Assembly (NCBI GenBank): GCA_937124585.1
Contig: CAKZKT010000056.1
Span: 1 to 56,845, forward strand
Reading direction: 5' to 3'
Source of the DNA: an uncultured Anaerolineae bacterium
GTDB lineage: Bacteria > Chloroflexota > Anaerolineae > CG2-30-64-16
DNA: 56,845 nt
The first letter of the stretch is position 1. Each line of letters opens with the position of its first letter. The position numbers were made by a program, and so were the translations under genes. The notes under the pieces were generated by a model, which was not told the origin of the DNA, did no database searches, and saw only the letters and a program-made list of their open reading frames with translations. Positions 16,271 to 52,245 of this stretch are shown in pieces.

Positions 16271-19200
16271 ATGCCCCTCTTACAGTTCTATTTCCTGGGC
16301 CAACTGAAGATGGAAGCGGGTGGGCAGGCGCTGCTGACGCCGCCGACGCTGAAATCGCAATCCTTGCTGGCCTACCTGGTCCTTCATCGCCGGCGCGCGC
16401 AGCCGCGCGATCACCTGGCCGGCCTGTTCTGGGGAGAACGGCCAGAAGAGAAGGCGCGCCAATCCCTCTCCACGGCCCTGTGGCACATCCGTCGCACCCT
16501 CCCCGACGAACCCCTGATCCTCAGCGACGCGCAGATGGTGCAGTTCAACCCGCAGGCGGCCCTGTGGCTGGATGTGGAGGCGTTCGAACAGCTGATCAGG
16601 GCCGAGCCGCGCGAGAGCCAGGAGGGGACCATCGCCCGCCTGCACAAAGCCGTCGAGCTGTATCGCGGCGAACTCCTGGAAGGCTTCTGCGATGACTGGA
16701 TCATCAACGAGCGCTATCGGCTGGAGGCCCTGTTCCTGGAGGCCCTGGCCAGTCTCATGGCTGCCAGCGAAGCGCACGGCGAGCACGAAGCCGCGCTGGC
16801 CGCGGCCCTGCGCCTGCTCCACCACGACCCGTTGCGCGAGGAGGCCTACCGCGGGGCCATGCGTGCTTACGGTCGCCTGGGACAGCGCAACGCGGCGTTG
16901 CAGCAATATCAGCGCTGTCGGGAGATCATCCGCGCGGAGCTGGGCACAGAGCCGATGCCCGAGACCGTCGCGCTGTACCGCGCGCTCCTGGAGGACCGTT
17001 TTCCGGTCGAGCGCGGGGTCGCCGCCGCGCCTGTGCGACCCCCGGCCCCGACGGCCGCGCCGGCCATCCGTTCTCCGCTGGACGCGGCCGGGGCCAGCCC
17101 GCTGGTAGGCCGCGCGCCAGAAATGGAGCACTTGCTCCGTTGCTATCAACGGGCCGAGGCCGGCGAGGGGGCTTTGCTCTTCATCGAGGGCGAGCCCGGC
17201 ATCGGCAAGACCCGCCTGGCCGAGGAGCTGTGCCGCCATGTGAGGGGCCGGGGCGGCTGGGTCGTCAAAGCAAACTGCTATCGGCATGAGCAGGCCCTGC
17301 CCCACGGCCCGTTGGCCGACATCCTGCGCGGGGCCGTGGTCATCGCCGGCGACAGCCTGGGCCAACGCCTCTCCTCCTGGCAGATCACCACCCTGGCCGG
17401 TCTGGCCTCCGAACTGCATGCCCACCTCCCCGCCCGGCGCCAGACCGTTTTGCCCGGCGAGTCGGAGCAGACTCGCCTCTTCGGCGCGCTGACCTTCCTG
17501 CTGCTTGACCTGGCCTGCCAGGTTCCGCTTCTGCTGGTGCTCGAGGACCTGCAATGGGCCCACGAAACCACGCTGGGCTGGCTGCACCATCTGGCCCGCC
17601 ACCTGCCCGGCACCCCCCTCCTGATTCTGGTCACCTATCGGCCCGGCGAGATGGAAACCCCTCACCCGGCGACCAGCCTGATCCAGCAGTTGCTGCAGCA
17701 GGGCCTGGCGAGCAGGTTGCGCCTGACCAGGCTGTCCCTGGAGGATCTGACCGGCTGGATGCGCGGGGCCAGCAGCCCGTTGTTGGCCGCCATCTACCGG
17801 CACACCGAGGGCAATCCCTTCTTCGTCCTGGAGGTTCAACGGGCGTTGCTGGAGGCAGGGAAACTGTGCCTCGACGCGGGCCGCTGGGTGGAAACAACTC
17901 CCGTGACCAGCCTGCCCATCCCCGATTCGGTGCGCCAGGCCATCCAGGATCGCTTGAGCCGGCTTTCCCCGGCGGCAGGCCGCGCGCTGAACGTCGCGGC
18001 GGTCATCGGTCTGTCGTACGACCTGGACATCCTGGAGCGCGCCTGGGGCCAGGGCCAGGAGGTCACGCTGGAAGCGTTGGACGAGCTGCTGCGCCGCCGG
18101 CTGGTGCGCGAGGGCAGCGGCGTGTTCAGCAGCGATTACGAGTTCGACCATCACCTGGTGCGGGATATCGTGTACGAGCGACTGGCGCCCCATCATCGCC
18201 GGCAATGGCACGGCCGCGTGGCCCAGGCGCTGGTCGAGCAGCACGGCCACGAGCCGGCCCGCAGCGCCGAAATCGCCTATCACTACACCCGGGCCGAGGA
18301 TTGGGAGCAAGCCCAGAAGTATCTTTTCCAGGCGGGCGACCAGGCAGGGCGGATGGGGGCCGATCCCGAGGCGCTGGCCTACTATCGCGAGACCCTGGCC
18401 GCCTGCGAACGGGCCTCTGGCGGCCGCTGGGAACCGCTGCAGCGCGCTTCGCTGGAGCGCCGCATGGGCGAATCGTACTTCCGCACCGGGGAGCACGCGC
18501 GGGCGCTGGAACATTTGGAGCGGGCGCTGGCCTTTCTCCATCGCCCTTTGCCGAGGAGTCCTGCGGCGGTGAGCGCGGGGATCGCGGCCGAGCTGGCACA
18601 GCAAGCCGCGCGCATCCTGGTGTCGTCTTTTCTCCGCCGGACCGTCGGCCGGCCAGCTCCCGCCGTGGAAGAAGAGGTGTTGATCTATTCGCTGACCGGC
18701 TGGATCAACGCGCTGTTGTCCAACCACGGGCTGTACCTGCTGGTCTGCCTCCGGGCGCTGAACGTGTCTCAAGCAGCGCACTATGCTGACGGCGAGGCGC
18801 TGGCCGCGGCGGCCATGGGCACAGGCATGGATTTCATCCCCCTCTTCCCTCTGGCAGCCTATTTCCATCGGCGAGCGGCGAGCAGGGTGGGGGAGCTGGA
18901 TCATCCCGGCACGGTGGGGTTCGTCTACCAGGCGCTGGCCTACCACCATCATTTGCTGGGCAACCTGGAAGCGGTGGTGGCGTATGCCCGGCGGTCGGCT
19001 GCCGCCTATCAGGAGGCCGATGACCCCCATCGCTGGGCGCTGGTCACGTTGCTCATCGCCTATGCCCACGCCTATTGCGGGGAGTTCGACCGCGGGCTCG
19101 CCTGCGCGCACGAGCTGGTGAAACTCGGCCAGGAGGTGGGCGACCGCTGGGTCCTCTGCACCGGCGAGGAGATGACCGGCATCCTCTGTCGTCATCAGGG

Positions 19201-19780
19201 CCGGCTGGAAGAGTCGGAGGCCCATCTGCAGCGCGCCGTCGCGCTGGCTGCCGACATCCCGGACTACATGAGCCTGGTCGAGAGCAGCGGTGAACTGGGC
19301 AAGTGCCATCTGCGCCAGGGCCGCTGGCCCCAGGCCGTGGCCGACCTGGAGGCGCAGCAGCAGGTCGCCTGCGCGCACGGCGTGAAAGGCGATTCGCTGG
19401 GCCGCTTCCTCAACGCCCTGGCCGAGGCTTACCTGGCCGCGGCCGAAGGGGACGACCTGGCCGCGCGCGCGGGCTGGTTGCACAAAGCCGGGGCTGCCTG
19501 TCGGGCTGCCCTGCAACACGCCGGCGCCTTTCGCCCCGGCCTCCCGGAGGCGCTGCGCCTGCAAGGAAAGTACGAATGGCTGTGCGGCCATCGCAGCAAA
19601 GCACGGCGCTGGTGGCAACGCAGCCTGGCGCAGGCCGAGGCGATGGGACATCGCCACGACCTGGCGCTGACCTCTCTGGACATGGGGCTGTACCTGGCCG
19701 ACCCCGCCGCGCTTGACCGCGCCCGGGCCCTCCTCGCCGAGATGGGCGCAGCCTGGCATCTCGCCAGGGCCCTCGCCTGA
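16271..19780 (+). CDS. SARP-family regulator with BTAD, AAA ATPase and TPR domains
   Basis: A 1169-residue large SARP/LAL-like transcription regulator. The N-terminal winged-helix DNA-binding domain (about 1-95, with KSQSLLAYLVLHR and ALWHIRRTLPD) is followed by the bacterial transcriptional activation domain BTAD (about 100-250, ending GTEPMPETVALYRALL). The AAA_16 ATPase has Walker A GEPGIGKTR at 307-315 and a Walker-B-like LLLVLEDLQWAHE. The C-terminal half is helical TPR-like repeat. Such proteins bind direct repeats with 11-base spacing next to a -10 box and activate the adjacent operon; exactly such a site lies at 19826-19858, just behind this gene. It is therefore probably the activator of the small protein and metallopeptidase genes that follow. 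The activating signal is unknown. Confidence 0.9.
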   Translation: MPLLQFYFLGQLKMEAGGQALLTPPTLKSQSLLAYLVLHRRRAQPRDHLAGLFWGERPEEKARQSLSTALWHIRRTLPDEPLILSDAQMVQFNPQAALWLDVEAFEQLIRAEPRESQEGTIARLHKAVELYRGELLEGFCDDWIINERYRLEALFLEALASLMAASEAHGEHEAALAAALRLLHHDPLREEAYRGAMRAYGRLGQRNAALQQYQRCREIIRAELGTEPMPETVALYRALLEDRFPVERGVAAAPVRPPAPTAAPAIRSPLDAAGASPLVGRAPEMEHLLRCYQRAEAGEGALLFIEGEPGIGKTRLAEELCRHVRGRGGWVVKANCYRHEQALPHGPLADILRGAVVIAGDSLGQRLSSWQITTLAGLASELHAHLPARRQTVLPGESEQTRLFGALTFLLLDLACQVPLLLVLEDLQWAHETTLGWLHHLARHLPGTPLLILVTYRPGEMETPHPATSLIQQLLQQGLASRLRLTRLSLEDLTGWMRGASSPLLAAIYRHTEGNPFFVLEVQRALLEAGKLCLDAGRWVETTPVTSLPIPDSVRQAIQDRLSRLSPAAGRALNVAAVIGLSYDLDILERAWGQGQEVTLEALDELLRRRLVREGSGVFSSDYEFDHHLVRDIVYERLAPHHRRQWHGRVAQALVEQHGHEPARSAEIAYHYTRAEDWEQAQKYLFQAGDQAGRMGADPEALAYYRETLAACERASGGRWEPLQRASLERRMGESYFRTGEHARALEHLERALAFLHRPLPRSPAAVSAGIAAELAQQAARILVSSFLRRTVGRPAPAVEEEVLIYSLTGWINALLSNHGLYLLVCLRALNVSQAAHYADGEALAAAAMGTGMDFIPLFPLAAYFHRRAASRVGELDHPGTVGFVYQALAYHHHLLGNLEAVVAYARRSAAAYQEADDPHRWALVTLLIAYAHAYCGEFDRGLACAHELVKLGQEVGDRWVLCTGEEMTGILCRHQGRLEESEAHLQRAVALAADIPDYMSLVESSGELGKCHLRQGRWPQAVADLEAQQQVACAHGVKGDSLGRFLNALAEAYLAAAEGDDLAARAGWLHKAGAACRAALQHAGAFRPGLPEALRLQGKYEWLCGHRSKARRWWQRSLAQAEAMGHRHDLALTSLDMGLYLADPAALDRARALLAEMGAAWHLARALA

Positions 19781-31273: not shown

Positions 31274-32283
31274 ATGGCATTTCAGCAAGGCCACGCGCTG
31301 GTCATCGGCGTGGGGACGCATCGCTACCATCCCGGCCTCGACGTGCCCATCACCGTGGCGGACGCGGGGCGGTAGTGAACGTGCTGCGCGATCCGAACGC
31401 CTGCGGCTATCCTGCGCAGCAGGTGCGCGCCCTGCACCGGGGCGAAGCAACGAAGCCGGGCATCCTGGCCGGCCTCGACGAGCTGGCCGCGCGCGCCGGC
31501 ACGGGGGACACCGTCTTCCTCTTCTTCTGCGGCCACGGCGCACGGGGCACCGACGGGGACTACTACCTGGTGAGCCACGACGTGCGGCTGCAGGGGGATC
31601 GCGTGGCGGCCGGCACGGGGGTGAGCGAGGGGGAGCTGCTGCAAAAGCTGCGCGACATCCAGGCCCGGCGCATGCTGCTGATCTTCAACGCCTGTCACTC
31701 GGGCAATATCTCGCCAACCCTGGAGCCCGGGCGGGAAACGCTGGCCACCGCCAATCCCGACGCAGATACCGCCGCGGCCCTGTTGGGCACAGGCCAGGGC
31801 CGCATCATCATCACCGCCTGCCGCGAGGAGCAGGTCTCCTACATCGGCACGGGGCGGCTGACGATCTTCACCCAGGCGCTGGTGGATGGGCTGCGCGGCA
31901 AGGGGGTGCGCAACAGCAACGGCTTCATCAGCGCCTTCAGCCTCTACGAGCACGTCTACGAGGCGGTGACCGAGGCCGTGCGGGCGCAGATCGGCGCGGT
32001 GCAAGAGCCGGAGCTCACGGTGCTGCGCGGGGTCGGCCCGTTTGCGGTGGCCCTGTACCGCGGGGCCAGCGCCCTGGGCGACTTCCCCGCCGGCGAGCGG
32101 CCTCCTGCAGACATGGCGGTGCGCGAAGTGCCGCGAGAGCGGAGCGCCTGTCGCTTCGAGCAGCGCGTGTACACCGGCGGCGGCGCCTACATCGGCGGCA
32201 ACGTCAATGTCGGCTGCGACTTCATCGGTCGGGATATGATCGTGTACGGCGACGAGGTGCACGGCGACAAGATCGGCGGCTGA
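31274..32283 (+). pseudogene. caspase-like (peptidase C14) protein, one frameshift
   Basis: The ATG at 31274 has AGGAGGTT upstream and encodes QGHALVIGVGTHRYHPGLD, the first strand of bacterial caspase-like (metacaspase) proteins, then hits TAG at 31373-31375. One missing G in the GGGG run 31366-31369 would restore the continuous frame starting VVNVLRDPN. The rest is intact: catalytic His in FFCGHGARG, the SHDVR loop, catalytic Cys in LIFNACHSGN and the C-terminal helices. The final 45 residues form a Gly-rich tag (GGGAYIGGNVNVG, CDFIGRDMIVYGD) matching a tag at the N-terminus of the NACHT protein encoded next. Known relatives are executors of regulated cell death or conflict systems; partnership with the NACHT protein is inferred. 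The single indel may be a base-calling error. Confidence 0.8.
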
Positions 32284-32408: not shown

Positions 32409-35363
32409 ATGGACAACCCGCAACCGTCTCTAGACGAGCTCCGGCGCCAGCTGGCGGCCCTGGAGCGCTCGCTGGCCGACCTGGCCGCGGCCGGGGTGGG
32501 AGAGGCCGCGTTGGCAGCGCTCAAGCAGCAGGCCGCCGAGGTCCGCCAGCGCATCAGCACGGCCGGCGGCGCCTACACTGGCCGCGACGTCTCGGCCGGC
32601 CGCGATTTCGTCGGGCGGGACCAGTTCGTCCAATATGTCTTCAACATCTACCGCGCGCCGGCGGGCAGGGGCAAGCTGAGCGACGCCGACCTGAAGCGCG
32701 TCCTGGGCGAGTATCTGCGCTGGGTGCGGGACGCCTACGATCGCGCCCGGCTCTTCGGCATGGAAAGCGCGCCGACGGTCCGCTCGACCCCCCGGCCCGA
32801 ACTCACCGACATCTTCATCCCGCTGACCTTGCGGCGGTTCAATCCGCCTACTCGCCGCGAGCGCGAGGCGGCGCTGCGCGACAAGAGCGGCCTGGATGCC
32901 TTGCTGGCCTGGCGAGAGTTGAGCCACGCGGAAGGCCGGGCGGGGAAGATCATCCCCCTGGACAAGATGCTGACCCTCTCCGACCGCCTGGCGATCGTCG
33001 GGGGCGCGGGGAGCGGCAAGAGCACGGTGTTGGCCTACCTGGCGGCGACCCTGGCGGCTGCAGCGCAGGTCGACACGCCCCTGCCCTATCGCCTGCCCGG
33101 GTCCGAGATCCCCGTTCCGCTGATCGTCCCGCTGCGCTACTATCGCGACTACCAGGAGATGTGCCGGGCCGCCGGCGGCAGGCTCCTCGACGACCCGTGC
33201 GCCGGGACGCTGGCGGGTTTCATCCCGTGGTATCTGCGCCGGCGCAGCAAGATCCTGGAGGCGTCGGAGGACTTCTTCGACCGGCTGTTGCAGGGCGGCG
33301 GCTGCCTGCTCATGATTGACGGCCTCGATGAAGTGGTGAGCCGCGAGCAGCGTGGCCAGGTGCGCCAGGAAGTCGAAGAACTGGTCACGGACAACTATCC
33401 CGGCAACCGGGTGATCGTGACGGCCCGCGAGGCGGGCTACCGGGAAGAGGCGGTCTTCGGGGAGGACTTCCTGCGGCTCGACGTGCAGGATCTGGACGCC
33501 GCCCAGATCGCCGCGCTGGTGGAGAAATGGTGCCGCCGGCTCTATCCCGAAGACGTGGCCGGCAACCGCGACAAGCTGGTGGACGCCATCGCCCACATCA
33601 ACGAGCTGCGCCGCGAGCGCGCCTTGCCGCCGCTGATCAGCACGCCGCTCATGACGACGATGGTGGTGAGCGTGCAGTGGGGCGAGACCGAGCTGCCGCG
33701 CGAGCGAGCACGGCTCTACGAGGCGTGCGTCAAGGCGATCCTCCAGGCGCAGTACATCCCGGACGACCCCGCGCGCGAGATGCTGGTGAATTGGGGCGGG
33801 CCCTGGGAGGCGCAGCGCGACTGGCTGAGCCTGCTGGCGCTGACGATGCACGAGGCCGGCCGTGGAGGCGCAGCGATCCGCGAGGAGCGCGTGCGGGAGA
33901 TCCTGGCGGAGAGACTGCCGGCCGCCGCGCTGGACGACTTCCTGCGCGCCGTGCGCTACCGGGGCGGCCTGTTCGAAGAACGTGCGGAATTCTTCCAGTT
34001 CATGCACCTGACCTTCCAGGAATTCCTGGCCGGCCGCTTGCTCGCCAAGCAGCGCGAGGCCGGCCGACAGGTCATCGCCCGGCATGTCTCGGAGAGCTGG
34101 TGGCGCGAGGTCATCCTGCTGGTGTACGGCTACCTGCAGATGGATTACCCACCCGCGGCCGCAGAGTTCCTGCACTGGCTCTCGCACCTGGAGGGCGATG
34201 GGAAAGAGCAGCTGGCCGGCGCGGAGCTGGCCGGCGCAGCCGTGTTGGAGCTGGAACGGCCCGACCCAGCCTTGCGCCGGCGCCAGGCCGAACGGCTGGG
34301 GGCGTTGTTGGAAGACCCGCAACTCGTCGCCCCGGCCCAACTGCGCGCTGCGGCCGGCGATACCTTGGGCCGGTTGGGCGACCCGCGCTTCGACGACGGG
34401 CCGCTGTTCCTGCCGTGCCGCTATCGCGACGAGCCGGAGCCGACGCACGGCTTCGTGGAGATCGCGGCGGGGCCGTTCGCCATGGGCAGCCAGAAGGGTG
34501 ACCGAGATGCGTTCGACGACGAACTCGGCAATCCCGCCCGGCTGGAGATCCCGTATCGCTACTGGATCGGCCGCTACCCGGTCACCGTGGCCCAGTTCGC
34601 CGCGTTCTGGGAGGACGGCGGTTACGCCGCGGACGCGCCCTGGTGGACGGAGAGGGGACGGGCCTGGCGCCGCGGCGAGTGGGACAGCCAGGTCGAGGGG
34701 GAATACCTGCGCGATTGGCTGGCGCGGCGGCCGGTGGCGCAGCGCGCAGCGCCCCGGCTCTGGAACGATCAGCGGGCCTATCCGAACCGGCCAGTCGTGA
34801 ACATCTCGTGGTTCGAGGCGGTCGCCTATGCCCGCTGGCTCGATGCCCGGCTGCGGCCCCTGGCAGCCTGGATCCCCCCAGGCTATGCCGTGTGCCTGCC
34901 CACCGAAGCCGAGTGGGAAAAGGCCGCCCGCAGCGGCCTCCCCTCTCCCTGGGAGGGAGAGGGGTCGGGGGTGAGGGTTTCCCCGACGGGCCGGGGCGGG
35001 GGCCGGGTCTACCCGTGGGGCGACGCTCCCTGGGATGAGCAACGCGCCAACATCGATGAGAGCCAGATCGGCCACGAGACGCCGCCGGGCATCTTTCCGG
35101 CCGGCGCCACCCCGACGGGGATTCATGACCTGGCCGGCAACGTCTGGGAGTGGACCTTGAGCCTGTACCGGCCCTATCCCTACCGGGGCGATGACGGCCG
35201 AAACGACCCGGAAGCCGAAGGCCCGCGCGTGGTGCGTGGCGGGTCGTGGTACGACAATCAGAGGCACGCCCGCTGCGCCGTCCGTTACGGGGGCGATCCC
35301 GTCGCCTTCGATGACTACGTCGGTTTTCGGGTGGTGGTGTCCCTATTGGCTTCTGGTTTCTGA
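32409..35363 (+). CDS. NACHT NTPase fused to FGE/C-type-lectin domain; candidate DGR target
   Basis: A 984-residue STAND protein with AGGAGG 7 bases before the ATG. Residues 1-50 form a coiled coil. The Gly-rich tag GGAYTGRDVSAGRDFVGRD lies near 53-71. The NACHT domain has Walker A GGAGSGKST at 198-206 and Walker B LLMIDGLDE at 300-308, followed by helical regions to about 670. Residues about 675-980 form a formylglycine-generating-enzyme-like domain (FVEIAAGPFAMGS, PVVNISWFEAVAYARWL, LPTEAEWEKAA, LAGNVWEWTL, RGGSWYDN, VGFRVV). A palindromic element adds about 21 residues in frame at 34935-34997. The end of this domain is where DGR variable regions sit, and an RT stub follows at 35476. Bacterial NACHT proteins include anti-phage sensors; the FGE part may be a ligand-binding lectin fold. 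Confidence 0.88.
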   Translation: MDNPQPSLDELRRQLAALERSLADLAAAGVGEAALAALKQQAAEVRQRISTAGGAYTGRDVSAGRDFVGRDQFVQYVFNIYRAPAGRGKLSDADLKRVLGEYLRWVRDAYDRARLFGMESAPTVRSTPRPELTDIFIPLTLRRFNPPTRREREAALRDKSGLDALLAWRELSHAEGRAGKIIPLDKMLTLSDRLAIVGGAGSGKSTVLAYLAATLAAAAQVDTPLPYRLPGSEIPVPLIVPLRYYRDYQEMCRAAGGRLLDDPCAGTLAGFIPWYLRRRSKILEASEDFFDRLLQGGGCLLMIDGLDEVVSREQRGQVRQEVEELVTDNYPGNRVIVTAREAGYREEAVFGEDFLRLDVQDLDAAQIAALVEKWCRRLYPEDVAGNRDKLVDAIAHINELRRERALPPLISTPLMTTMVVSVQWGETELPRERARLYEACVKAILQAQYIPDDPAREMLVNWGGPWEAQRDWLSLLALTMHEAGRGGAAIREERVREILAERLPAAALDDFLRAVRYRGGLFEERAEFFQFMHLTFQEFLAGRLLAKQREAGRQVIARHVSESWWREVILLVYGYLQMDYPPAAAEFLHWLSHLEGDGKEQLAGAELAGAAVLELERPDPALRRRQAERLGALLEDPQLVAPAQLRAAAGDTLGRLGDPRFDDGPLFLPCRYRDEPEPTHGFVEIAAGPFAMGSQKGDRDAFDDELGNPARLEIPYRYWIGRYPVTVAQFAAFWEDGGYAADAPWWTERGRAWRRGEWDSQVEGEYLRDWLARRPVAQRAAPRLWNDQRAYPNRPVVNISWFEAVAYARWLDARLRPLAAWIPPGYAVCLPTEAEWEKAARSGLPSPWEGEGSGVRVSPTGRGGGRVYPWGDAPWDEQRANIDESQIGHETPPGIFPAGATPTGIHDLAGNVWEWTLSLYRPYPYRGDDGRNDPEAEGPRVVRGGSWYDNQRHARCAVRYGGDPVAFDDYVGFRVVVSLLASGF
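34940..34964. repeat. palindromic mini-element inside the FGE coding region
   Basis: CCCCTCTCCCT (34940-34950), a GGG loop and AGGGAGAGGGG (34954-34964) form a perfect 11-pair hairpin. It is part of an in-frame insertion read as LPSPWEGEGSGVRVSPT, between the EKAARSG and GRVYPWGD segments that are normally nearly adjacent in FGE domains. Confidence 0.7.
35250..35318 (+). other. candidate DGR variable region (VR)
   Basis: Residues 948-970 of the NACHT-FGE protein, between the invariant RGGSW and VGFRVV segments, correspond to the ligand-binding positions diversified in DGR target proteins with this fold. Many codons here end in C or T with first two bases freely varied (TAC, GAC, AAT, CAC, GTC, TAC, GGC, GAT, GTC, GCC, TTC, GAT, GAC, TAC), which is what adenine mutagenesis of AAC/AAT template codons gives. 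No template repeat is found in this window, and GC-rich codon use also favours C endings, so this is inference. Confidence 0.5.
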
Positions 35364-35413
35364 GGTTCTGGTTTCTGCGTGCTCCTGGATTGCTGAATCC
35401 TGGGGGATGGGGT

Positions 35414-35442
35414 CTGGGGAAGGGGCGTAGCCCCTTCCCCAG
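35414..35442 (+). terminator. strong hairpin downstream of NACHT-FGE
   Basis: A perfect 13-pair stem (35414-35426 with 35430-35442) closes a three-base GTA loop 50 bases after the stop codon. No T-tract follows. DGRs also often have a hairpin or cruciform just downstream of the variable region, so a retrohoming role is an alternative to termination. Confidence 0.5.
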
Positions 35443-35475
35443 GGGGTTAAACGCGTTGCGGGGATTTTGCCCGGC

Positions 35476-35757
35476 ATGAAACGCTACGACCATCTCTACG
35501 CCGAAGTGACCAGCTTCGAGAACCTGTGGCTGGCGGAGAAGAAGGCCGCCAGGGGCAAGCGCGGGCAGGGGGCCGTGGCTGCGTTCGAGTTCAACCTGGA
35601 GGACGAGCTGCTGCGTCTGGCCGATGAGCTCGCCCCTGCGCTCGACGTCAACCGGGCCACGATCAAGCGCGACCTGGCAGCGCTGTGCGCGGCAGGCGAG
35701 GGGGTACTCACGCGGGGGAGTCGGGTGCACAACACGCCAACCCTTCGCGACCGCTAA
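35476..35757 (+). pseudogene. N-terminal stub of a DGR-type reverse transcriptase
   Basis: The first 52 residues (MKRYDHLYAEVTSFENLWLA, then KKAARGKRGQGAVAAFEFNLEDELLRLADEL) match the N-terminus of retron/DGR-type reverse transcriptases, which begin MKR-x-x-x-L, have a FENL-x-x-A motif, and an x-F-x-x-N-L-E-x-E-L-L-x-L helix. The catalytic palm motifs are absent: after residue 52 the frame switches to LDVNRATIKRDLAAL, a helix-turn-helix-like end unrelated to RTs, and stops at 35757. The stub lies 112 bases downstream of the NACHT-FGE gene, on the same strand, which is the normal gene order of a DGR cassette. Deletion joined it to the end of another gene. It cannot be active. Confidence 0.65.
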
Positions 35758-50379: not shown

Positions 50380-52245
50380 TCATGCGATGACCCTGAATCG
50401 CACATCCAGGCGCGGCAGATCCACATGCGTGGCCTTCAGGCGCAGCACGCTGTCGAGCGGCAGGCCGTCGGGGACGGGCAGGTGCGGTTCCAGGCCCAGC
50501 TCCGGGATCAGGACGACGCTGTTGCGGTCGCGGCGCTCGACGAGCACGCCGTCGCCCTGCCACGGCGCATGTTGCAGCAGGTAGACCAGCGTCCAATGCT
50601 GGTTCGACAGGTGTTCGGCCTGGCGCAGACTGCCGATGACCGCCTCGGTGGCGCCGACCCGCTCCAGGATCTCCTCGGCGGTCAGCAGGCGGCCGCCAGA
50701 CAGGTGGGCGCGCAGCTGTTGATGTGCGACCAGGTCCAGGTAGCGGCGCATCGGGCTGGTGGCCTGGGTGTAAGCTGAGAGGCCGAGCCCGCTGTGGGGT
50801 GCCGGCGTCGCGCGATACTGGCTGCGCTTCATCGTTTTGCGCAATGCGAACATCTCTGCCAGGCTGTGGCTCTCTGATCCCTGCCTTCTGGCTCCTGCTT
50901 CTTGCTCGTCCGGCGGTTCCTGGGTGGAGAACGGCAGCGGGAGGCCGCGTTCAATGGCGAAGCGGGCGACTGCCTCGCCGGTCAGGATCATGGCGTTTTC
51001 TACGATGACGCGAGCGGCCAGCTGCGGAATCGGTTTCAAGCACACCTGGCCGTCTCTGACCGTGACATCTACCTCGGGCAATTTGATCTCTACTGCGCCG
51101 GCCCGATTCCGCCTGTCGCGATAGGCCAGCGCCAGCGCGTAGAGCGAGGCAAACGGCTCCTCGGTCAGGCGCGCGGTTGCCTCTTCGTAGGTGAGGCGCG
51201 TGACGCGCACCCAGCTCGGCACGATTTCGATATCGGCGATGTGGCCATCGGGCTCCAGGTCGAGGCCGAAGGAGAGGGCTGGCGAGACCGTTTGGAGGCC
51301 CAGGCCCAGCCGCGGGGTGGCGGCCGGCGGCAACATGTGTACCGTGCCTTCGGGCAGGTAGAGGCTGGCTCCGCGGCCACGCGCTTCCAGGTCGAGCGGG
51401 CTGTCGGGCGTGATCAGCGCGGCCGGGTCGGCGACATGCACCCACAACCGGCGGTCCTCCAGGCTGAGCGCGTCGTCGGGCGTCTCGGTGGCGGCATCGT
51501 CTATGGCGAACGCCGGCAGGATGGTCAGGTCGCGGCGCGGCTCGTCGGGCAGGTCAGGAACGGGCAGGTCGGGCTGGGCCGTGCTGACCCCCAGTCGGGC
51601 GGGATAGGGGTTCACTGCCGGCGTCCAGTGGCCGAGTTCGAGCAGCAGCGCGTGGGCGGTTTCCGGAGTTTCCTCGCGGTCGAGCTCGCGCAGGACGCGC
51701 GAGCGGCTCGTGCGTCCCAGCGCCAGGGCCTCTACGTCGCGCAGGAAGCGGCCATCTTCGGCGCCAGGCGCATTTTGGTCCGGCTGGCCGCGCACGCGTG
51801 CCAGAAATGCGACCCAGGCCTGTTTTTCAGCGGCTTCCGCGGCGCGGGCCGCGCGTGTCCGGGCTACTTCTTCGGCAGTGCAGGCGATGACGGCTTCCGG
51901 CGTGCCACGGAAATAAAGGCCCTCGACGATCAGTTGCCATGTGGCCCAAGCCGTGGCCGGCGTGTACGCGCCGAAGGTCAGTTCGGCCAGCTCCGGCAGG
52001 GTGGTCGTGCTGCCCGCCAGCATTTCCCAGGCGGTTTCGACTTCGCCCTGCTGGGGCCGCAACGCCTCGGCCAGCGAGGCAAGCGGGCCAGGGTGGAGGA
52101 GGGTCACGTCTTTAGGGCGTACCTTCTGCGTCTCGCCGCCTTCGATTTCGATGTCGAGCTTTTCTCCCAGCCGCGCCACGCGTGCCGGACGCAGCTTGTA
52201 GAGCACCAGGCTTCCCTCGCGCAGTTTTGTGTGGGAATCGGTCAC
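50380..52245 (-). CDS. RNB-domain exoribonuclease (RNase II/R family, VacB-like)
   Basis: A 621-residue RNase II-family protein that would degrade RNA 3' to 5'. The RNB domain has the catalytic acidic set in FAIDDAATETPDDALSL (near residues 235-251), HVADPAALI, and the YTQATSPMRRYLDL motif near residue 525. The N-terminal part (LVLYKLRPARVARLGEKLDIEIEGGETQKV) is an SH3-like or cold-shock-like RNA-binding region. I chose GTG 52245 because AGGAG lies 6 bases upstream; the ATG at 52251 touches that AGGAG. Promoter: extended -10 at 52283-52291. It is shorter than RNase R and lacks an obvious basic tail. Confidence 0.87.
   Translation of the reverse strand: MTDSHTKLREGSLVLYKLRPARVARLGEKLDIEIEGGETQKVRPKDVTLLHPGPLASLAEALRPQQGEVETAWEMLAGSTTTLPELAELTFGAYTPATAWATWQLIVEGLYFRGTPEAVIACTAEEVARTRAARAAEAAEKQAWVAFLARVRGQPDQNAPGAEDGRFLRDVEALALGRTSRSRVLRELDREETPETAHALLLELGHWTPAVNPYPARLGVSTAQPDLPVPDLPDEPRRDLTILPAFAIDDAATETPDDALSLEDRRLWVHVADPAALITPDSPLDLEARGRGASLYLPEGTVHMLPPAATPRLGLGLQTVSPALSFGLDLEPDGHIADIEIVPSWVRVTRLTYEEATARLTEEPFASLYALALAYRDRRNRAGAVEIKLPEVDVTVRDGQVCLKPIPQLAARVIVENAMILTGEAVARFAIERGLPLPFSTQEPPDEQEAGARRQGSESHSLAEMFALRKTMKRSQYRATPAPHSGLGLSAYTQATSPMRRYLDLVAHQQLRAHLSGGRLLTAEEILERVGATEAVIGSLRQAEHLSNQHWTLVYLLQHAPWQGDGVLVERRDRNSVVLIPELGLEPHLPVPDGLPLDSVLRLKATHVDLPRLDVRFRVIA

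Follow-up and report, generated by a model that had tools for sequence, protein, structure and literature searches.

A NACHT-FGE gene of an uncultured Anaerolineae bacterium is very probably what is left of a dead diversity-generating retroelement (DGR): a former target whose reverse transcriptase (RT), Avd, and template repeat (TR) were removed by rearrangement. The stretch of DNA analyzed (the window; 56,845 nt) makes up the entire contig C56 in a 4.83–million base pair genome, a 99.8% complete draft of 164 contigs that is not closed and was assembled without long reads. A first-pass annotation had read the locus as an NLR-like sensor diversified by a DGR, and this reading is supported by the identity of an RT stub, the mutation pattern of a variable repeat (VR), and a hairpin. 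The type itself is already known, and the locus is a well-supported example of a degenerate NACHT-lectin DGR; the part that could be new is a phased array of short motifs located between the VR and the hairpin.

The sensor gene (positions 32409 to 35363, forward strand) encodes a 984-residue protein with an N-terminal NACHT nucleoside triphosphatase (PF05729, E = 2.9e-10), including the Walker motifs GGAGSGKST and LLMIDGLDE, and a C-terminal FGE domain of the C-type-lectin fold (FGE-sulfatase, PF03781, E = 5.6e-46), whose matches among solved structures include the Treponema variable protein 2y3c. Its nearest named relatives come from Chloroflexota metagenome-assembled genomes, one of them labeled Anaerolinea sp., and homologs with DGRs in cis occur in the same class. 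An in-frame insertion of ~20 residues (SPWEGEGSGVRV...) at 34935 to 34995 in the FGE domain is missing in the ortholog from genome G005 and resembles a small dispersed repeat.

On its upstream side, the sensor gene is adjoined by a caspase-like gene (Peptidase C14; 31274 to 32283, forward strand; PF00656 on 31375 to 32280, E = 1.2e-13) that occupies two reading frames. The frame is broken in a run of G residues at ~31366 to 31376, which may reflect decay or a sequencing error, and since the gene is frameshifted, the sensor as assembled has no intact effector next to it. The His (CGHG) and Cys (ACHSG) motifs are both retained in the downstream frame. A 24-residue stretch is common to the caspase C terminus (32180 to 32275) and the NACHT N terminus (32556 to 32640), with 14 of 24 residues identical; it reads as a GGAYxGxxVxxGxDFxGRD-like motif, and the G005 pair has its own version. 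Receptors and effectors whose signaling runs through a common motif share stretches of this kind, and we propose that the two proteins work as an NLR-like pair. The likely mechanism would be that the FGE domain senses a ligand, NACHT oligomerizes, and the caspase is activated; a phage component has been proposed as the ligand of NACHT-lectin DGR targets (PMC10907252), and the sensor may accordingly respond to invaders. On the opposite strand, past the RT stub, lie a HicA toxin gene with a clear Pfam match and an open reading frame (ORF) whose similarity to HicB is weak.

The VR occupies positions 35229 to 35342 of the forward strand; its true edges are perhaps 35223 and 35346. Compared with the TRs of two genomes of the same family, G007 and G004, it differs at 16 of 26 and 17 of 27 adenines, respectively, but only at 12 of 88 and 10 of 87 non-adenine bases (P = 3.5e-6 and P = 3.3e-7), i.e., substitutions in the VR are directed to template adenines. 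The first-pass annotation had noted that codons between the invariant RGGSW (residues 943 to 947) and VGFRVV (from residue 971) are rich in C/T endings. This holds for 20 of the 23 codons at residues 948 to 970 compared to 53% in the remainder of the FGE domain, as expected if AAY template codons had been rewritten at positions 1 and 2.

Comparison with the closest ortholog pointed the same way, the same annotation having counted homologs without excess variation in this segment against its reading. The NACHT-FGE ortholog of G005 is 69% identical over 853 residues, carries two in-frame stop codons, and has a caspase-like neighbor; no RT was found in the stretch retrieved around the gene. Within the VR, 17 of 26 TR-adenine sites differ between the two genes versus 6 of 88 other sites (P = 2.4e-9), while the flanking DNA differs at 13 of 60 and 27 of 120 sites upstream and 12 of 46 sites downstream (~22%). 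The excess variation is thus confined to template-adenine sites. Adenine bias alone reached P ~ 1e-4 in a few ordinary FGE genes used as controls, because template adenines fall at naturally variable codons. The control genes, however, differ from the G007 and G004 TRs at 27 to 52 of 87 to 88 non-adenine sites, and the discriminating signal is therefore the low non-adenine divergence of the VR rather than the adenine bias alone. Non-adenine sites that are kept better than the flanks, together with saturated adenine sites, make up the two-sided signature that repeated copying from a template would be expected to leave in a sequence.

A perfect 13-pair hairpin had been noted at 35414 to 35442 (forward strand), and folding as single-stranded DNA bore it out (−20.8 kcal/mol, z = −4.6, matched by no shuffled sequence). 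This GC-rich structure has a 13–base pair (bp) stem and a 3-nt loop, lies ~70 bp 3′ of the VR, and is of the DGR target-site stem-loop type. In intact cassettes, a GC-rich hairpin likewise follows ~70 nt past the VR, with stems of 9 to 16 bp in most cases, and the G007 VRs have the stem core and loop of the window at an almost identical position. Such hairpins are absent after ordinary FGE genes and from TRs, though some TRs have unrelated hairpins close by. The possibility that the structure is an intrinsic transcription terminator was rejected, as no run of T residues follows the stem.

Downstream of the hairpin, on the same strand, lie the N-terminal 52 codons of a DGR-type RT (35476 to 35631). 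Residues 2 to 52 of this stub (51 aligned) are 57% identical to the N terminus of the complete DGR RT on another contig of the same genome, C131, and the stub is 69% identical to the RT of G007. The earlier description of a 52-residue RT stub was correct as to its identity, but the ORF is 93 codons long, and residues ~50 to 93 are not derived from an RT. When the 93-residue product was used as a query, it matched RT N termini across the class; the matched proteins are DGR RTs with the IGNLTSQ and YVDD motifs, whose genes adjoin that of an Avd above the NCBIfam equivalog cutoff. Only residues 1 to 52 of a DGR RT remain at the locus. The dN and dS values for the stub versus the G007 RT (0.23 and 0.92, respectively; NG86) still show constraint carried over from a functional past.

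From ~residue 50 onward, the ORF matches the C-terminal winged helix-turn-helix (wHTH) of BTAD-AAA-TPR-wHTH regulators of ~1300 residues. This in-frame fusion of ~40 codons (35623 to 35757, forward strand) corresponds to the last ~35 to 45 residues of BTAD/STAND/TPR proteins of 1276 to 1438 residues, and the junction is located within 35623 to 35640. At this point an RT homolog reads CAGGATGAGCTGG and a regulator reads GTGGACGACCTGG, which makes a join at short microhomology plausible. The BTAD gene at 16271 to 19780 of the window was considered as the source of the fused segment and rejected: It is a separate 1169-residue gene that is homologous over its N-terminal half only. Since the genome is a draft, the junction at ~35630 could in principle be an assembly chimera, the cassette being intact in the cell. 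We consider this very improbable, because the reading frame continues across the junction, none of the other contigs has a free end carrying RT, Avd, or TR, and similar stubs recur in other genomes.

No cognate TR or RT is left in the 99.8% complete draft. A cognate TR was sought with a relaxed pattern, a template-like peptide, and the TR DNA of a relative; apart from the VR itself and the repeats on C131, these searches returned an ordinary FGE gene on contig C1 (peptide search) and short chance matches (DNA search). A template repeat with adenine-specific mismatches, which the first-pass annotation had looked to the genome to supply, is thus missing from the draft, but the TRs of G007 and G004 match the VR with just such mismatches. 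The sole DGR RT of the genome and its sole true Avd are both on C131, and none is present at the window locus. An Avd-like match on C78 was rejected as being below the cutoff, of a four-helix-bundle type, and located near a radical-SAM-like ORF without an RT. An RT on C122 (locus L001) was likewise rejected as a DGR RT; it adjoins an ORF that reads as cas1-like in sequence and is probably CRISPR-associated.

The C131 locus (L052) is a complete second DGR: Beside a zinc-ribbon FGE target, it has an RT bearing the IGNLTSQ and YVDD motifs, a TR, and an Avd scoring above the NCBIfam equivalog cutoff. Its cis VR differs from its own TR at 16 of 30 adenines and 5 of 84 non-adenine bases. The annotation had called for a search for an intact DGR RT that could act in trans, and the RT of C131 is intact. 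The C131 TR, however, is mismatched to the window VR at 26 of 84 non-adenine sites, some of them in the 3′ end on which homing depends. Ongoing diversification of the window VR in trans by C131 is thus strongly disfavored, to the point of being extremely improbable, and the VR is probably no longer being diversified at all. A cognate cassette may sit in an assembly gap of the 164-contig draft.

Relatives show what such a locus looks like when complete. G007 and G004 contain full cassettes with a STAND-FGE target, a hairpin, an RT, an Avd, and a TR in the order VR-RT-Avd-TR; the RTs are full-length and carry IGNLTSQ and YVDD, and the VRs differ from their own TRs at 6 to 18 adenines and 0 to 2 other bases. 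The hairpin and array of the window are positioned as in these intact cassettes. In 298 related genomes, at least 17 STAND-FGE genes are followed on their own strand by an RT that begins no more than 250 nt downstream. In at least 10 other genomes (G014, G056, G078, G123, G134, G149, G182, G246, G253, and G269, three of them among the 17; loci L120, L121, L123, L127 to L131, L136, and L137), a STAND/FGE target is followed by an N-terminal RT stub that is homologous to RTs no further than residue ~53. Break points in other genomes cluster close to the RT start, with a few longer truncations. No further RT lies adjacent to the stub within the stretches retrieved from the ten genomes, and several of these genomes also hold intact DGR-type RTs.

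Either loss in place or the copying of a target module could produce such recurrent stubs. According to the second scenario, the NACHT-FGE gene, VR, array, hairpin, and first ~50 RT codons were copied together from a donor cassette, having once been diversified in trans by a DGR that is now lost or missing. A cassette may then never have been complete here, and a module copied with the RT start alone would look identical. The recurrence of such stubs, some in genomes with intact RTs, is consistent with dispersal; so are second targets in G007 and G004, which have a hairpin and an array but no RT, and the remote DGR targets described earlier (PMC10907252, PMC7517822). The genome of the window, however, contains neither a donor cassette nor a second copy, and the 69% identical G005 ortholog, with its caspase-like neighbor, has a different downstream break, which fits separate local losses. 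We regard dispersal as rather unlikely and infer that the cassette was lost in place.

If the cassette was indeed lost in place, the caspase and NACHT-FGE proteins would have formed an NLR-like effector/sensor pair in which mutagenic retrohoming rewrote the end of the FGE domain. In this process, an error-prone RT acting with Avd would have copied an adenine-rich TR, and the cDNA would have replaced the VR, directed to its site by the 3′ end of the VR and the hairpin and perhaps also by the phased array. Subsequently, a rearrangement would have fused the RT gene at codon ~52 with the 3′ end of a gene for a BTAD-type regulator and eliminated the rest of the RT, Avd, and TR. Since the sensor ORF stayed open, its binding face would now be fixed at the last variant written, and the sensor looks frozen.

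Degenerate DGR loci with NACHT/STAND and C-type-lectin targets have been described in multicellular bacteria, in particular Thiohalocapsa PB-PSB1 (Dore et al., PNAS 2024, PMC10907252), and filamentous Chloroflexi are listed among carriers of related DGRs (PMC10907252). As in Thiohalocapsa, the window has a STAND/NLR-like target whose C-terminal lectin domain is hypervariable, and key DGR parts are missing or broken. The RT of the window, however, has not been replaced by MITE arrays or transposons but is cut to an N-terminal stub fused in frame to the wHTH of an unrelated regulator, and there is no trans TR in the genome. In cyanobacteria, remnant TR-VR homology without an RT (all3226) and dispersed variable proteins are known, and it has been suggested that the diversifier was lost (PMC7517822). 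The window likewise contains a lectin-fold target bereft of its diversifier but belongs to another phylum, retains an RT stub, and combines NACHT with a caspase partner. Adenine-directed VR variation and a GC-rich hairpin 3′ of the VR are shared with the DGR of Bordetella phage BPP-1; phage hairpins have 7- to 10-bp stems and 4-nt loops and lie 4 to 34 bp from the VR (PMC3240598), in contrast to the 13-bp stem, 3-nt loop, and ~70-bp distance seen here, where a phased array separates the two. The locus is a clean natural example of an immune-type receptor that was hypermutable and has lost its mutator, and it allows a site-by-site comparison of a frozen variant, diversified relatives, and a decaying ortholog. 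Should the recurrence of RT stubs be confirmed, ending diversification, or copying targets away, would be a common fate of such receptors in this Chloroflexota class.

The array (35351 to 35402, forward strand) consists of seven NCTG motifs with spacings of 7, 8, 7, 10, 8, and 7 nt. All 17 VRs checked (loci L019 to L091) are followed by four to eight NCTG motifs before the hairpin, spaced mostly by 7 to 8 nt. The mean number of motifs was 6.4 after VRs compared to ~1.5 in shuffled sequences, 1.25 after TRs (n = 8), and 1.1 after ordinary FGE genes (n = 8), the array z-scores being inflated by partial relatedness of the VRs by descent. Self-identity peaked at lags of 7, 8, and 15 nt after VRs, with no such maxima after TRs. 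The same lags were found for 11 cyanobacterial and Chlorobi VRs, with a CCCTTT-like core (the array loci include L152 to L159). Of the NCTG arrays detected across 343 kb, most lay immediately 3′ of a VR and in its orientation. Scanning 12 genomes for TCTG triplets also turned up perfect 7-nt tandem repeats (TCTGCAA) elsewhere in some of them, and array matches thus need VR context; in the genome of the window, the two DGR targets account for two of the ~6 distinct sites.

Searches of the searchable DGR literature for repeats downstream of the VR and for TTCTG returned no description of such an array. It is conceivable, and we suggest it tentatively, that the array is a cis element of DGR target sites that is new to the literature and required for mutagenic retrohoming, in which the spacing (7, 8, and 15 nt) is kept but the core is not (NTCTG in Chloroflexota, CCCTTT-like in cyanobacteria and Chlorobi), and which marks live and dead targets without reference to an RT or a TR. 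The array offers a testable handle on target finding by DGR cDNA. A second NCTG array (CTCTGATCCCTGCCTTCTGGCTCCTG) is present at position 50873 of the window, with no VR or strong hairpin close by.
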